From positions 62,001-126,000 of the forward strand of contig QMSP01000002.1 in the NCBI GenBank assembly GCA_003650925.1: a DNA stretch of 64,000 nucleotides, in the 5' to 3' direction. Both the position numbers and the translations under genes were made by a program. A model generated the notes under the pieces. The model worked only from the letters and a program-made list of their open reading frames with translations, did not search any database and was not told the origin of the DNA. The stretch comes from Thermoprotei archaeon (lineage in GTDB: Archaea; Thermoproteota; Thermoprotei; QMSL01). This document shows, piece by piece, positions 10,401 to 34,421 of the stretch. The stretch's first letter is position 1; each line of letters begins with the position of its first letter.

Positions 10401-11502
10401 TGATGGAATGCCTATACTTCCCTGCAAGCTAATGGTGAGCAGAGTAGGACAAGTTCTAGCCTTTGTAGTAACATGGGCTAATCCATACGAAGTCATACTT
10501 ATAAACTGGAGGGATGCCCTTAAGTTTCCCTTCACTATAATCTCAAGGCTCTATATCACTACCGACCAGGGCAGAGATCTTAAGAGGTTAGCTCTTGTAA
10601 TGACAGAAGCCTATAACCTGGTATCAGTCTACGCTACAGAGGAGGGAGTATTTGTCTCCTATCTAGGTCCTCTCATTCAAATGCATGGACTAGGCTTCAT
10701 AATAATGCCTCTAGTCCTAGCCTTCATGGTTATAGCCACAAGCTCCCTGGGCATAGCTTTTGAGAGGAGAGGTGAAGCGAAGGTCATGTCACTGCTAGGA
10801 CTCAGCCCCTCATCCTTAATCATGGTATATGCTACTGAGTACTTGATACTAGGCATGTTAGGGGGCATTACAGGGTATTTCCTAGCGCTTCTGTGGTATA
10901 GAGCATTTCGGAACATGGGCATAATGATAGGAGTTGTTGAGAAGGCGTCCAGCACGTGGGCACTAATAAGTATGGGCATGAGCTCAGCCATAACGTTGAC
11001 ATCCTCAATTCTCCCATTAATAGTAGCCGTGAGGAAGATTACTGCTTCAAAGATGCTTTCATGGAGGCCGTTCATATTAGATTCCATGAAAGGCATTATG
11101 GCGGTTGAGCTTCCTGTTGCTATAAGAAAAGAGGTCAAAGATTCGTTCATGAAGTACATGAAGGAGAATCTGAGGCGATGTATAGAGTCACGCTCATCAT
11201 TCAAAGTTGAGGAGATCAAAACTACTCAGAGTGGGGACTTAAGGCTTAGAATGTACTCAATTGAAGAAGGAGCCACTGTTGAATGCATTCTTGACATCAA
11301 GTGCATCGAGGAGGATGGAGGCTATAGAGCCCTTGTCATAGTCACTCCTATAACACCAAGAATAAGGTCAAGGTTCAAAGTCATAAGACAAATCTCTATG
11401 TTAGGCATGAGGTTAAGGTTGAGAAGTGCTCTTTCAGCCATACGGTTGCTCTCCATCAAGGGAGTTCTCCACTCTTCACCTTCTCAACAAGGAACTCAAT
11501 GA
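7447..11502 (+). CDS. Membrane protein: signal peptide + transglutaminase-like domain + TM + carboxypeptidase-regulatory-like domain + FtsX-like permease
   Basis: TGase motifs GDCSEYADIFIALCRAM and GHTWPEVWVPS; CarboxypepD_reg-like VRGKVVDIYGNPIENATIVV; FtsX-like NIRRWKLRSMLILISTTLIVASL...KDLDGMPILP and multiple C-terminal TM segments. Confidence 0.82.
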   Translation: MGNLVTGLMITLMMICIGLACAYNDLLLVTSKTCYNYTEILILEYRGEEPAKELMFAYPIPPNTTWQICDLVKANPKPIAIMKRGPNTLLLFTVRLVDQLPSKVTIMCNVTVLELRSNLNKDNSGSSYEIPSTLMVKFTRATYWWNYTAPEVVEVVDEIRSALSEEDNVYEIVMAIREWLIKNMKYTLHRERRGAVEAILSREGDCSEYADIFIALCRAMRLPARRAWGWLVNIRGEYATWLGHTWPEVWVPSIRSWVPIEVTMIGEEKAPNLGEVDTRYLAFLIEDGTEDITLMRIMPRDESALPGSGEWKMIDKDVWLTSSIMIRPMKKNLGDRILAARLKLLIAIAIAVLIAAALVMSSIKQKRAIKAILLLIMLLALVSWTSAVEANDVEVRGKVVDIYGNPIENATIVVLFGEERLEVSTNEAGEFNINLSSPSLLYIYHVNEEGIHDYVPVTIYVDRSSNITVTLHPGALLRLEGQPFSIELASLARVSGIVVLAERPMPLHSITSYGTYTSSNVFGLEPNEAVVPANIPFRLKIQLVTTPAIMPMLKNVTMETTLEEMEELLTKMGRRLTFRSTRTIEIPANGSYVVRQGALIVLDVSKIVLELDINGYADILDRLDGTISDLERLGLYMYGDRLLLEKAKERLEEAKVLVEKDLLAEAYVKLREVYLSVLRVYSHVKDLLLEENRALFGITLFISLTSFMVAALLFEDRRRRAFVSALIAATIVIALYVLQPLMRLMKTETLIMIISSSISFPPFLSLILHIEPTSRVGMALALAKRNIRRWKLRSMLILISTTLIVASLVSLTSASVTYTTITTRINLEIPKGSLLLKGISSIEALKEYARRLAGLHAAEVFPVSRLDMSLMEFIKTNFRVREVLPMVITLPTMRPLTWLESAKGSLPVFGIIGLDFQEDPIAKVLEEGVIEGNLRDLENSRTIAVSSIMADVLDLEVGSVVEIFNMKYRVVAIIDDNAVVRTKDLDGMPILPCKLMVSRVGQVLAFVVTWANPYEVILINWRDALKFPFTIISRLYITTDQGRDLKRLALVMTEAYNLVSVYATEEGVFVSYLGPLIQMHGLGFIIMPLVLAFMVIATSSLGIAFERRGEAKVMSLLGLSPSSLIMVYATEYLILGMLGGITGYFLALLWYRAFRNMGIMIGVVEKASSTWALISMGMSSAITLTSSILPLIVAVRKITASKMLSWRPFILDSMKGIMAVELPVAIRKEVKDSFMKYMKENLRRCIESRSSFKVEEIKTTQSGDLRLRMYSIEEGATVECILDIKCIEEDGGYRALVIVTPITPRIRSRFKVIRQISMLGMRLRLRSALSAIRLLSIKGVLHSSPSQQGTQ

Positions 11503-12373
11503 TATATTTAGCAGGATTGACTCCAGCTACATGCTTTAATTCTCTCCACTCAGGAGAGGCGTTGACCTCGAGCACATAGGTTCCTTCTTTGCCCTCAACT
11601 ATATCCACGCCAGCATACCATAAGTTCATCACCTGAGCAGCTCTTATGGCAAGCTCCTCAAGCTCCTCAGATAGCCTGATCGCCTCTCCCTTTCCTCCCT
11701 GAGCTATATTTGTCTTCCAGCTTTGGGTAGCTCTTCTCCTCATGGCAGCTATTACTTGAGAGCCTACTACAAATGCTCTTATATCGCAACCTCTACTCTC
11801 AACATACTCCTGAAGTAGAAGTGGCTGGCCATAAGTTAGAGAACTCTTCATGATGTTGAAGACCGTGTCAGCATCCTGGGCCAGTACTACTCCATAGCCT
11901 CTTGAGCCTATGATCGGCTTCATAACTAGAGGGCACATTCGTTTTGCCTCATCATATGCCACCCTTAACGACTCAGTAGACAAAGTCTCTGGCACTGGTA
12001 TGCCTGCTGATTTGAGCTTTATGAGAGTTAATAGTTTGTTCCTCGCCTCCACTAATGAGCTCACTGGGTTCATTAGCACTACGCCTCTGAGCTCTAGTAG
12101 TCTCAGGATGGCTACTCTCCTCATGAACTGTGAAAGGCTTATCATATGCCCAAATGACCTCACCACACCTCCATCATAGCAGTCTACTCTGTCGTGGGTA
12201 GAATAGTCTATAACCTCCATTCCTGTTCTGCTCAGTCTAGCAATAAGTCTTCTTGTCCTGACATACTTAACCTCATGCCCCAGCTCAAGAGCCGTCTTGA
12301 TGAGATCGTTACATGAGGAATCAGGTCTTGGGTTCTCATGTATTATTAATAGCCTCAAATCCACTCTCCTCAA
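11456..12373 (-). CDS. ATP-grasp ligase, RimK/LysX family
   Basis: MKPIIGSRGYGVVLAQD, LLLQEYVESRGCDIRAFVVG and VLEVNASPEW motifs. Confidence 0.85.
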   Translation of the reverse strand: MRRVDLRLLIIHENPRPDSSCNDLIKTALELGHEVKYVRTRRLIARLSRTGMEVIDYSTHDRVDCYDGGVVRSFGHMISLSQFMRRVAILRLLELRGVVLMNPVSSLVEARNKLLTLIKLKSAGIPVPETLSTESLRVAYDEAKRMCPLVMKPIIGSRGYGVVLAQDADTVFNIMKSSLTYGQPLLLQEYVESRGCDIRAFVVGSQVIAAMRRRATQSWKTNIAQGGKGEAIRLSEELEELAIRAAQVMNLWYAGVDIVEGKEGTYVLEVNASPEWRELKHVAGVNPAKYIIEFLVEKVKSGELP

Positions 12374-12481: not shown

Positions 12482-12865
12482 ATGGTGGGAGAAGCTAAGT
12501 CTAAAGAGGAAGAGACGAGACTTATACTAAGGGAATTAATAGACGGTGATGCCATTATAGGTGCGGCGGTCCTGGACGCGAGAGGCACTCCGCTAACATG
12601 GGTCTTGCCTCCTACCCTAGACCTGAAGGCAGTCAAGACCTCAAGTGCATTGATAGAGATACTGCTTAGGGTCAAAGATATGGAAGACTCCAGACTTGGT
12701 CGCTTTATATACTGCGTTGTTCGCTTCAGGAATGTGAAGACAACTGCTATGGACATAGACGGAAAGGGCTACCTGCTGCTCTTCGTAAGCCCTATATGGC
12801 ATGTTGAACTACTATTACCCAAGGTGAGGCAAGCACTTAATAAGCTGAGAGCTCTCCTCCTTTAA
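12482..12865 (+). CDS. Roadblock/LC7-like domain protein
   Basis: 127 aa with roadblock-like pattern: AAVLDARGTPLTWVLPP, alpha-helix, MDIDGKGYLLLFVSPIWHVELLLPKVRQALNKL. Confidence 0.6.
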   Translation: MVGEAKSKEEETRLILRELIDGDAIIGAAVLDARGTPLTWVLPPTLDLKAVKTSSALIEILLRVKDMEDSRLGRFIYCVVRFRNVKTTAMDIDGKGYLLLFVSPIWHVELLLPKVRQALNKLRALLL

Positions 12866-12867
12866 CA

Positions 12868-14457
12868 ATGCTACTGAGATGTCTAAGGAGTGCGCTACAT
12901 AGGCTATTAACAGCCGCACCCCTCTCATACAAAATTGTACTCTACAGTATATCGAGATCTGCTCCTCCTAGCGAAGAAGTGTTCAAGAAACTCAGTGAAA
13001 TAGTGAGGAATGATGGTCTTAGTGTACTCGCCGAGATACTGCATCTAACAGCCTATGATAGAGGTTTGCTCAGGAAGGTAGTTATGAGGAGCCTGAACAG
13101 CATATTGGTCAAGCTTGAGGGCTACCAGCTTGATAATGGCCTCTGGTATGAGAACGTGAGCTATAAGTTCGCTACAGACAAGGGTGTAGCTCTCAGACTT
13201 ACTCTCAGCATCCTTGAAGGTCTCTTGAGCTTAGGGGTAAGGAATAAATCTGTGATGAGGGCTATAGAGGCTCTTCTAAGACTTCAGAAGCCGGAAGGCT
13301 ACTGGTCAGGGCTTCTGAGAAGGCACTATATAGACTATGAAGTCACAGCACGTGCCATAGCTCTACTCCACGACCTCATGGAAGACTACAGGCTTAGGCT
13401 GGGCATCGAAGCTCTAAGGAAGTGGATATTTTCATCTCTCTCAAGCGGTCGTTGTGACCAGCCATGGGCACTACCCTACGTCATATTATGTCTGGTTAGA
13501 CTAGGCCATGAAGAGGAGCTTAAAGCTCGAATTATTGACCTGATTGAACTCGTCAGCCGTTATCAGCTTGCAACTGGAGATTGGTGTAGAGGCTACAGAT
13601 CGTTCATGAGCACATTCATTCTCATGCTCGCCCTAACAGACCTACTGAACGCTCACGAGGAGGTGGTGAGATATATAGAGACCCTCGTCGAAAGAAAGAG
13701 GAAGCTTCTGAGGACGATCTATGACAGAAACCTCTTGGAGCTTCTAAGGCATGATATAATTAGAGAGATAGAGGATGCTGAACGTTTACTACCCCTCAAT
13801 GGTGTAAAGAATCCCAAGCTATTGGCTGCCTTCAGCTGGGCCTACAAAAACTCCATTCCTCGCAAGCTCATGCCTAAGAGAGAAACCATTGAGCTCTACA
13901 AAGGCTATCTTCAGAAATACTCTTTTTCCAGCATACAAGAGCATGCTAGAACGCTTGCTGAATACGTGGTGGAGGAGGTAGCTAAGCATACTGATAGATA
14001 CGAAAATCTAGCTCTCACCATGAGGCTCTATAGGCTTAACTCATGGAATGAAAATCCCCTCGCCCTGCTCAGAGCAGCTCTTTTATCCTTCCCAGGTGTC
14101 ACTTCTCTATGCAGTGACCTATATGTGCTAGCGCTTTACTTGATGGGACTTAAGGGCTTAGAGTCGTGCTCCAGCCAAATTCAGCCTCCAGCTGATTCAA
14201 AGCTTCTAATTATTCTCAGAAGACTAGGCATGATATCGACACCAATAGTAGTGGCTATGAGAAATTATTCCATCATACGGAAGGAGGTCATGGAGTTAAG
14301 CAAAGAGCTGTTTCCTAGAGCGCCTTTCCTACTCTACTCATTAGCCTCCATAGCGAAGAAGTGGTGTTTGAGGAGGACTAGATGTGTAAGAGTGACTAGA
14401 GAAGGTTTGCTTAAATGTCCTCTATTCAATATATGCACTAAGAGGAGATATCAGTGA
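12868..14457 (+). CDS. QW-motif alpha/alpha-toroid protein with C-terminal degenerate HhH-GPD-like, cysteine-rich domain
   Basis: Three QxxxGxW motifs (QLDNGLW, QKPEGYW, QLATGDW). C-terminal FPGVTSLCSDLYVLALYLMGL...PPADSKLLIILRRLGM...CLRRTRCVRVTREGLLKCPLFNIC resembles the HhH-GPD and Fe-S region. Confidence 0.7.
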   Translation: MLLRCLRSALHRLLTAAPLSYKIVLYSISRSAPPSEEVFKKLSEIVRNDGLSVLAEILHLTAYDRGLLRKVVMRSLNSILVKLEGYQLDNGLWYENVSYKFATDKGVALRLTLSILEGLLSLGVRNKSVMRAIEALLRLQKPEGYWSGLLRRHYIDYEVTARAIALLHDLMEDYRLRLGIEALRKWIFSSLSSGRCDQPWALPYVILCLVRLGHEEELKARIIDLIELVSRYQLATGDWCRGYRSFMSTFILMLALTDLLNAHEEVVRYIETLVERKRKLLRTIYDRNLLELLRHDIIREIEDAERLLPLNGVKNPKLLAAFSWAYKNSIPRKLMPKRETIELYKGYLQKYSFSSIQEHARTLAEYVVEEVAKHTDRYENLALTMRLYRLNSWNENPLALLRAALLSFPGVTSLCSDLYVLALYLMGLKGLESCSSQIQPPADSKLLIILRRLGMISTPIVVAMRNYSIIRKEVMELSKELFPRAPFLLYSLASIAKKWCLRRTRCVRVTREGLLKCPLFNICTKRRYQ

Positions 14458-15362
14458 GAAAGCTTGACCCCTTAAGGCTCAATATAGAGGATCACGAAGA
14501 AGAAGTAATTGAGAGATACAGCACTATGCTTCAAAAAGTAGGTCTCTCTACTTCACGACCCATTAGAAGTCTTCTCTTGGGGCTTCTCATAATAAGCCTT
14601 CTCGACTCCAATAGATGGTCATGGAGAATAGGCGGAGAGGATGCCGTTCTGGAGGAGTACTGGCTCTTTGTAAGTCATGTGGGAGACATAGATCAAGAGC
14701 TTGAGCTCTTCTCAAATCCTGATTATGTCGAAACAGCTATTGAAGACACAAACTGTTTGGTGAGATTAAGTGATGATGCGCGCTCCTCCTTCGTAAGCAC
14801 TATTATATGTTATGCCGAGTTCGTGGAGAACCTTAAGGTCAATAAAGTTGAGGACTATGCTCTCTCTATAACTAGCTTTGTATTGGAGGACCTCCTATGC
14901 AGGCTGAGCCCTCATGACTTCAAGAGGAAAGCTCACATGTTAGGAAGGCTTCTAGCCGCTTCAAGGAGAGGTGATAGTCCCTTGGAGATGCTTAGGTTAG
15001 CTCTCATGTGCTTTCCAGCTATAACTCATCGTTCAGCGAATCTATATCTGTATTACTTGATAAGAGTTCTTGGAGTTTGGAGAAGTCCATCAGTAGTGAG
15101 AGAGCTTCACTGTCCACTTGATCCAAGCCTTTTAAGAGTACTTAGGAGGATAGGCATGCTGAGGGTGAGGACAAACAGAACCACTTATCAGGGCTACTTG
15201 TATAGAAGAGTTCAGGACATAGCTAGAACATTGTTTCCAGAGGATCCAACCAAGCTTTTTATCTTAAGATATGTTGGAGATAGCTTGTGTAGGTCAAGAA
15301 GACCTAGCTGTGAGGATTGCTGGCTATTTGGAGTCTGTGAATATTATCTTAAGGAACTCTAG
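14454..15362 (+). CDS. Degenerate HhH-GPD (endonuclease III-like) protein with Fe-S cysteine loop; paralog of the C-terminus of the preceding gene
   Basis: C-x6-C-x2-C-x5-C (CRSRRPSCEDCWLFGVC), the same spacing as Nth at 33753-34421; CPLDPSLLRVLRRIGM aligns with VPVDTHISRIAVRLGY of Nth. 4-nt overlap with the upstream gene. Confidence 0.7.
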   Translation: MRKLDPLRLNIEDHEEEVIERYSTMLQKVGLSTSRPIRSLLLGLLIISLLDSNRWSWRIGGEDAVLEEYWLFVSHVGDIDQELELFSNPDYVETAIEDTNCLVRLSDDARSSFVSTIICYAEFVENLKVNKVEDYALSITSFVLEDLLCRLSPHDFKRKAHMLGRLLAASRRGDSPLEMLRLALMCFPAITHRSANLYLYYLIRVLGVWRSPSVVRELHCPLDPSLLRVLRRIGMLRVRTNRTTYQGYLYRRVQDIARTLFPEDPTKLFILRYVGDSLCRSRRPSCEDCWLFGVCEYYLKEL

Positions 15363-16026: not shown

Positions 16027-16533
16027 TTGGAGCACATACTCTCACTACTCAAGCGCAGAATAATCAAAGTGCTATTCTGCGGCGATAGTGGAGTTGGCAA
16101 GACAACGTTGATCGAGAGCTACAAGAACATGCAGTTCATTCCTCAGAGGACGACCATAGGGGTGAACTTTGCTACTTTCACTAATAAAGGATACAAAGTC
16201 CTGATAATAGACGCTGCTGGACAGCCTCGATTCTTTCCTATAATCAGAAGAATGTCTATTCTCAAAGGCGTTGACATAGCCTGCCTATGTTTTGATGCCT
16301 CAAGGCCTGAGACACTTGAAGTCTTGATGCTATGGAAGGAAGTCATTGACATATGGTGTCCTCAAGCCAAACTGCTACTTGTAGCCTGCAAATGTGACCT
16401 AGTGCCTATGGACGAGCTCATCAACATGGCTGAACGAGCTGCAGCTAGACTAGGCTGCATCAAGATCTACTACACCAGCGCTAAGGAATTGAAGTTCGAT
16501 AACCTCTTTGAGGAACTTATCAAGTTTCGATAG
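16027..16533 (+). CDS. Ras-superfamily small GTPase (Rab-like)
   Basis: G1 GDSGVGKT, switch I TTIGVNF, G3 DAAGQPRF, G4-like CKCD, G5-like TSAKE; no C-terminal prenylation cysteine. Confidence 0.9.
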   Translation: MEHILSLLKRRIIKVLFCGDSGVGKTTLIESYKNMQFIPQRTTIGVNFATFTNKGYKVLIIDAAGQPRFFPIIRRMSILKGVDIACLCFDASRPETLEVLMLWKEVIDIWCPQAKLLLVACKCDLVPMDELINMAERAAARLGCIKIYYTSAKELKFDNLFEELIKFR

Positions 16534-19380: not shown

Positions 19381-19764
19381 ATGCGTCCACCTCATCTAAT
19401 ATCACCTGAGATAGTTGAAGCCATGAAGAAGTATCGCAAGTTAGGGCATCTCACAGGAATTTTCCTCCTTAGCTCAGATGGCCTAACCCTTGTGGCTGAC
19501 TATGAAAATGAACTCGATGAAAGTCTCTTCGCTGCCATGGGGGCCTCCTTAGCGTCGATGGCGTCTACAATAGCTGATGAAGCTAAGCTATCTGAGGTCA
19601 GAAGGGTATTTATAGAGGCTAAAAATGGAGGTCTTATCGTTCTCCCTGTTAAGGATGAGTTTCTCCTTGTTGCTACCTTCCCTCCAACCACTAGAATAGG
19701 TGTAGCCCTCTATTGTCTTAGAAGGCTAAAGGACATCATCACAGAATCCTTATCCAAGCTCTAG
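19381..19764 (+). CDS. Roadblock/LC7 domain protein
   Basis: GIFLLSSDGLTLVADYENELDESLFAAMGASLASMASTIADEAKLSEVRRVFIEAKNGGLIVLPVKDEFLLVATFPP, a typical roadblock/MglB-like pattern. Confidence 0.85.
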   Translation: MRPPHLISPEIVEAMKKYRKLGHLTGIFLLSSDGLTLVADYENELDESLFAAMGASLASMASTIADEAKLSEVRRVFIEAKNGGLIVLPVKDEFLLVATFPPTTRIGVALYCLRRLKDIITESLSKL

Positions 19765-33296: not shown

Positions 33297-33770
33297 ATGT
33301 CGAGCCAAGAAACCTTCCATGAATCACATGGGAATATCACGTGCTCCTTAAGAAGGCTCATAGATGTCAATGTATGTACTAGAGAGCTCAGGAGAAATCC
33401 AAGACTGTTAATCTACGGAAAATGCGTGGCAGAGGAATATCCAGAGATCTTCAAGCAATTTGCCAAGGACAGAGTAGCTCTTGCTGTATGTCTAGAAGCA
33501 GAGCATATGAACATGGTAGGCTTTAAGCTAGCTAGTATGGCTGCAAGATTAGACCTTAAAGAGATAGTAGTTCTAACAGTCGATGGCTCTCCCCACTGCG
33601 TACAGCTTCACATGATGGTTGAAGAAGTGAATAAATTCTTCAGTAACAGGCTTAATATCAAGCACATAGTCATAGAGGAGGGTAGAATAGTCGAGATTGA
33701 TAGCAAGTGTGTAAAGGTAGCTAGATATCTTAGTAGGATTCAGAAACTCATCTTAAGACAAAGTACGTGA
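33297..33770 (+). CDS. Conserved-looking cysteine-containing hypothetical protein
   Basis: 157 aa with spaced Cys (CTREL, GKCVAEEY, AVCLEAEH, SPHCVQLH). Confidence 0.6.
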   Translation: MSSQETFHESHGNITCSLRRLIDVNVCTRELRRNPRLLIYGKCVAEEYPEIFKQFAKDRVALAVCLEAEHMNMVGFKLASMAARLDLKEIVVLTVDGSPHCVQLHMMVEEVNKFFSNRLNIKHIVIEEGRIVEIDSKCVKVARYLSRIQKLILRQST

Positions 33771-34421
33771 AGGGCAAAAATCTCTAACAGGACATTGACT
33801 ACATAGAGGAGATCTAGCTCTGCAAATATTCCTACCAAACTCGAGCAATAGTAAGTGAGCAAGGCCCAGATCGTAGTCTCCTAGCTCAGCCTCTAGACTT
33901 TTCCTTATCTGTTCATAGTCTGTTCTTGACCTAGCGTATCCAAGTCTCACTGCAATTCTGCTTATATGAGTGTCAACTGGCAATACCTTTCTCCTAGCGT
34001 AGAACACAAGGAGTATATCCGCAGTCTTAAAACCAATGCCTGGCAGTGATAGAAGCTCTCGTCTCGCTTTGTCAAATGCCCACTTCCTCACCCAATCCAG
34101 GCTTCCTCCATACCTTCTGAGTATCTCCTTTGAGACATCTATTAATCTCCTAGCCTTTATTCGTTGCATTCCTGATGGTTTGATAACTTCAGCCAAGGTA
34201 TCCTCATCCATTCTGGCAATGTATTCAGCTTTTAGGGGCACCTTATTCTTCAAATTATCAAAGGCTCTCTTGGCATTTACATCGCTTGAGTTCTGGGATA
34301 ATATAGTGCCTACGAGGAGCTCAAAGGGATCTGCACTTCTTAACCTCTTTAGCCTATCCTTGACTTCATCTCCTACATGCCCCATCATATACTCTATTAT
34401 GAGCTTCAGTGGACGCTCCAC
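33753..34421 (-). CDS. nth: Endonuclease III (HhH-GPD, [4Fe-4S])
   Basis: LPGIGFKTADILLVFYARRKVLPVDTHISRIAVRLG and C-x6-C-x2-C-x5-C (CRARSPLCSQCPVRDFC). Confidence 0.95.
   Translation of the reverse strand: MERPLKLIIEYMMGHVGDEVKDRLKRLRSADPFELLVGTILSQNSSDVNAKRAFDNLKNKVPLKAEYIARMDEDTLAEVIKPSGMQRIKARRLIDVSKEILRRYGGSLDWVRKWAFDKARRELLSLPGIGFKTADILLVFYARRKVLPVDTHISRIAVRLGYARSRTDYEQIRKSLEAELGDYDLGLAHLLLLEFGRNICRARSPLCSQCPVRDFCPSRTLS

Follow-up and report, generated by a model that had tools for sequence, protein, structure and literature searches.

The window analysed here, a stretch of 64,000 nucleotides from a little-studied lineage of heat-loving archaea, encodes a protein that joins an alpha/alpha toroid of the terpene cyclase/prenyltransferase type to a degenerate endonuclease III (Nth)-like domain. 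What role could such a combination serve: DNA repair, cyclase-type chemistry or something else? The original prediction, made from the DNA letters, had presented this gene (hereafter A) as a novel fusion. The toroid/Nth-like fusion proved to be real; A does not stand alone, however: it forms a conserved pair with the next gene, B, a second degenerate Nth copy that the prediction overlooked and through which the tie of A to Nth becomes far clearer. The stop codon of A (14455–14457) and the GTG start of B (14454) overlap by four bases, GTGA, at 14454–14457. The features of the locus are collected in Table 1. Families are given by the codes of our genome search (f1, f2 and so on), the window's family being f1.

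Table 1. Positions of A, B and associated genes; coordinates refer to the window unless another code precedes them.
Feature	Position	Strand	Basis or remark
Gene A, 529 aa: toroid (~1-285) and degenerate Nth-like domain (~286-529)	12868..14457	+	ORF list, alignments, AlphaFold model, profiles
QW motif 1, QLDNGLW, residues 87-93 of A	13126..13146	+	motif search
QW motif 2, QKPEGYW, residues 140-146 of A	13285..13305	+	motif search
QW motif 3, QLATGDW, residues 233-239 of A	13564..13584	+	motif search
Hairpin region of A, FPGVTSLCSDLYVLALYLMGL; Leu at the Nth catalytic Lys position	14089..14151	+	alignment
PPADS region of A; Asp443 at the Nth catalytic Asp by alignment; following TH of VDTH gone	14188..14202	+	alignment
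Four-Cys cluster of A, C-x5-C-x10-C-x5-C, residues 500/506/517/523; putative Fe-S site, C2-C3 loop widened	14365..14436	+	
Gene B, 302 aa, Nth-like paralogue of the C-terminal half of A	14454..15362	+	GTG start inside A stop codon
Cys cluster of B, C-x6-C-x2-C-x5-C, canonical Nth [4Fe-4S] spacing	15288..15338	+	
Ordinary endonuclease III of the window's genome, separate from A and B	33759..34346 (G000:C2:95759-96346)	-	
Small Roadblock/LC7-like protein of 127 aa; 2 bases separate its end from A	12482..12865	+	by eye, no Pfam match
RimK-family ATP-grasp ligase, divergent from A	11456..12373	-	
Conserved protein of ~220 aa	18231-18899; L045:10608-11273; L046:8652-9314; L051:11996-12727		
KaiC-family ATPase	L046:3321-4085; L045:7268-8035; L051:15469-16221; L057:12298-13068		

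The open reading frame of A, its coordinates and the peptides cited in the original prediction are all exact; antisense coding opposite A is ruled out by the abundant stops on that strand. The three predicted QxxxGxW motifs begin at residues 87, 140 and 233, and in 20,000 shuffles of residues 1–280 the maximum was a single such motif (82 times) and never two. The toroid itself is borne out by several approaches: the A family profile matches squalene-hopene cyclase (E = 1e-12), an f37 ortholog of A exceeds the Pfam cut-offs for the N and C families of SQHop_cyclase, and the AlphaFold model of A, which like that of B was built from alignments of the family members gathered here, is confident (pLDDT 89.2) and retrieves squalene-hopene cyclase (E = 7.2e-5) as well as farnesyltransferase toroids in Foldseek. 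The first half of A thus shares the QW repeats and helical toroid of the cyclases and prenyltransferases, and these features are what would speak for A being an enzyme of one of these kinds, a terpene cyclase or protein prenyltransferase to which an accessory domain was added. We consider such an enzyme very improbable, since the catalytic DxDD is missing from ten of 11 A members including the window's (one member has DIDD), the toroid positions that never vary belong to the structural QW repeats, and the usual partner of A is an Nth paralogue. A also differs from the known toroids in having an Nth-like domain fused to it.

Homology of the C-terminal half of A to HhH-GPD proteins of the Nth type, proposed at first from the letters, was recovered in profile–profile comparison with archaeal Nth (96.2%, E = 2.7e-9), and was stronger for the B family (98.2%, E = 3.4e-14), whose profile also matches the structures of ROS1 (4.7e-7), Nth and MutY. 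In both cases, the homology covers the region from the hairpin to the Fe-S cluster. The hairpin and catalytic-Asp positions are Nth-like as claimed: FPGVTSLCSD of A aligns with the Nth hairpin LPGVGxKTAD, and PPADSK aligns with P(V/I)DTH. The C-terminal half of A matches B even as a single sequence (E = 3.3e-13) and more firmly by profiles (99.8%, E = 8e-29); in f37 and f58, it matches positions 12–305 of the 310 in the B model, with E down to 9e-49, so that A amounts to a toroid plus a complete B-like domain. The AlphaFold model of B (pLDDT 93.4) retrieves Deinococcus and E. coli endonuclease III, MutY and AGOG in Foldseek with a probability of ~1.00; its agreement with endonuclease III is modest (E = 1.5e-3 or weaker, TM 0.43–0.61), and the sequence profiles are the stronger evidence. 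At the level of sequence, these comparisons establish descent of both A and B from an endonuclease III-like ancestor, with the alpha/alpha toroid as an addition gained by A.

Both genes occur in seven archaeal families, five in the window's class (f1, f2, f9, f11 and f14) and two outside it (f37 and f58), the latter pairs coming from 400 sampled genomes of the phylum. They are adjacent in f1, f2, f37 and f58 and are both present but apart in f9, f11 and f14, while f5, also of the window's class, has B alone. An A gene cut by a contig end is present in f55; the G264 match is an A gene truncated in this way. Members of f2 are MAGs labelled Thermoprotei archaeon, and a back-translation scan with four A sequences recovered f2 MAGs only. 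The well-sampled families f3, f4 and f7 gave neither A nor B, just ordinary Nth-type matches. A match at G003:C293 (L014/L055) was rejected as a family member, having in-frame stops and no other support, and toroid-only matches in G081 and G202 look like separate squalene-cyclase-like proteins. In the tree, A and B group together against ordinary Nth at 100/100, and the A and B sequences of f37 and f58 fall among the A and B rows, respectively. From this placement, the A/B duplication probably predates the split of these classes. Strict monophyly of A and of B is not rejected (p = 0.30 and 0.29, respectively), on long branches that do not fix the exact order.

As far as the libraries and papers searched show, this fusion with its Nth-like paralogue partner is real, conserved and so far undescribed. 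Pfam and NCBIfam gave nothing for the window's A at cut-off, and no Pfam, NCBIfam or PADLOC family spans A or B, in line with the earlier statement that no described family combines these folds. The match of B to DUF2400 (PF09674) stays below threshold (17.4 versus a cut-off of 25 bits), which does not make B a member by that test. A defence-system reading found no support, PADLOC giving only a weak match at the B cysteines (E = 0.004); a phage search with the window's A and a plasmid search with the f37 A returned no matches. Our literature search found no paper on a toroid/HhH fusion, on A or B, or on Nth-like genes in cdv neighbourhoods.

If the fold is that of Nth, is its chemistry retained? 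We aligned 11 A rows and 13 B rows with ten archaeal Nth rows, in all of which the hairpin G-x-G, the Lys and the Asp-Thr-His are invariant. The catalytic Lys position is never Lys in B, where it is Arg (as in the window), Gln, Glu, Gly or Tyr; six of the 11 A rows, those of f2, f37 and f58, have Lys, and all six retain the Asp as well, while the window's A has Leu instead and the Lys has also gone from A of f9, f11 and f14. The catalytic Asp is present in A and B of the window and in most members, the exceptions being B in f5 and f11 and A in f11 and f14. The Thr-His of VDTH, kept in every Nth row, is gone from all 24 A and B rows, the LSQ(N)T motif of Nth is lost throughout, and the hairpin GxG is lost in most members. 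The cysteines have fared differently, being among the best conserved positions of both families: they are retained in all B sequences of the alignment and, as a full set of four, in ten of the 11 A members. The predicted C-x5-C-x10-C-x5-C of A is exact, and is a variant of the Nth spacing found in B of the window, with a wider C2–C3 interval. Judged from the alignments, the cysteine clusters have been conserved while the Nth catalytic signature has not.

The main rival to a non-catalytic role is that A, with B as helper, acts as a DNA glycosylase that is specific to the lineage and has a changed active site, the toroid being an add-on for recognition of a lesion or partner. We regard this as possible but rather unlikely. 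The A proteins that keep both Lys and Asp suit an enzyme, and this counts against a non-catalytic reading; the Asp of most B and the Fe-S cysteines point the same way. Against it stand the absence of Lys from A of the window, f9, f11 and f14 and from every B, and the loss of VDTH and LSQ(N)T throughout. A further point against it is the separate ordinary Nth encoded in all 11 genomes checked, so that A and B do not serve as the cell's main Nth. Missing residues are nevertheless no proof of inactivity, since Sis-HhH-GPD from Saccharolobus islandicus, which has Glu134 and Ser152 in place of the Nth Lys and Asp, excises alkylated bases (PMC11754123). B of f5, with Glu and Thr at these positions, comes close to this active protein, which also weighs against a non-catalytic reading. 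Sis-HhH-GPD resembles our proteins in lacking the Lys/Asp and in having four cysteines, and differs in keeping the HhH-GPD signature motif and in its demonstrated activity; the sections of PMC11754123 drawn on here report no toroid or paralogous partner, and we liken it to B by residues, not as an ortholog. The converse case is EndoIII-3 of Deinococcus radiodurans (PDB 4uob), the top Foldseek match of B, which has the Nth fold and occurs alongside active Nth enzymes with EndoIII activity undetected (PMC10523315). Unlike A and B, it is a single protein without a toroid and its catalytic residues are kept.

The conserved cysteines also suit a different role, in which A and B are an Fe-S (or zinc) scaffold or redox sensor acting off nucleic acid, with the Nth fold as cluster holder and the toroid binding another protein. 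The hairpin glycines are mostly gone, as such a role would allow, and a roadblock-like gene is co-located in f1 and f14. However, most members are basic (every A, with pI 7.9–9.7), and the Nth region running from hairpin to cluster has been kept in full; we therefore consider a role off nucleic acid unlikely.

The gene neighbourhoods provide a lead on cellular context. The roadblock-like gene lies directly upstream of A in both f1 and f14, and the RimK-family gene is divergent from A in seven genomes of four families (f1, f2, f9 and f11). In both f5 genomes, B directly adjoins a cdvB–cdvC operon, with a Pfam-recognised CdvA in one of the two. In f9 (G056) and f11, B is directly upstream of a PRC-barrel/coiled-coil protein, the family of which aligns with CdvA over its full length (97.1%, E = 6e-11), a score that the coiled coil may inflate. 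A CdvA-like gene also lies ~4 kb from A in G036. B thus adjoins cdv or CdvA-like genes in three of eight families (f5, f9 and f11) and not in f1, f2, f14, f37 or f58; this linkage was noticed after the fact, by inspection, and was not a planned test. Only in the f5 genomes did we see an MIT-domain CdvC the size of Vps4; elsewhere, Vps4_C matches were in larger or fragmentary proteins, and the window's genome showed no Vps4-sized CdvC. The main text of an ESCRT survey (PMC10936438) does not mention endonuclease, glycosylase or HhH.

Taking together the Nth homology, the toroid, the pairing, the 100/100 grouping, the erosion of the active site, the separate Nth, the basic A and the cdv context, we give about an even chance to A and B forming a dedicated two-subunit complex: a mostly non-catalytic Fe-S DNA-binding pair with the toroid as docking domain. 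Each subunit would carry an Fe-S cluster stabilising an Nth-type DNA-binding clamp, and the pair would bind DNA, perhaps particular structures or damage, without the normal base-excision/AP-lyase chemistry. The toroid of A may offer a docking surface for a protein partner, through which, most speculatively, the complex might serve chromosome or cell-division processes. The case for DNA binding is weakened by the loss of the hairpin GxG in most members, and the window's B, with a pI of 6.6, is not a basic protein; the post hoc cdv link in three of eight families and the lack of a Vps4-sized CdvC in most genomes also count against this reading. A bolder version, in which an Fe-S pseudo-glycosylase complex links the state of the DNA (damage or unfinished replication) to Cdv/CdvA-type division as a checkpoint component, with the toroid attaching it to the machinery of division or polarity, strikes us as improbable. 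If the cdv linkage is real, the pair would be a candidate for connecting division with genome integrity in archaea, among them lineages without a detected Vps4-sized CdvC. These proteins show an Nth fold that was maintained, duplicated and joined to an unrelated toroid even as its catalytic residues were worn away, a pattern suggesting that Fe-S HhH proteins have a second function beyond base excision.

Several further genes were observed near the pair. The contig of the window also carries a CdvA-like PRC/coiled-coil protein ~25 kb upstream of A (L140:5192-5989; G000:C2). In f9 and f11 (L047 and L045; G056 and G048, respectively), B is next to its CdvA-like PRC/coiled-coil gene and near a DUF1512 gene; Pfam confirms DUF1512 in L047, and the L045 gene is a blastp homologue of the one in L047. 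Topoisomerase VI subunit-like genes, recognised by eye, lie ~2–5 kb from B in f14 and f9 (L056 and L047, respectively). In f1, f9 and f11, the ~220-aa conserved protein, which has no Pfam match, is encoded no more than ~8 kb from A; in f9, f11 and f14, the KaiC-family ATPase gene is no more than ~5 kb from A and, in f9 and f11, is followed by a methyltransferase-like gene. Within a few kilobases of A and B, the window also encodes a Ras-like small GTPase (Pfam; 16027–16533) and a further roadblock-like protein, recognised by eye (19381–19764).
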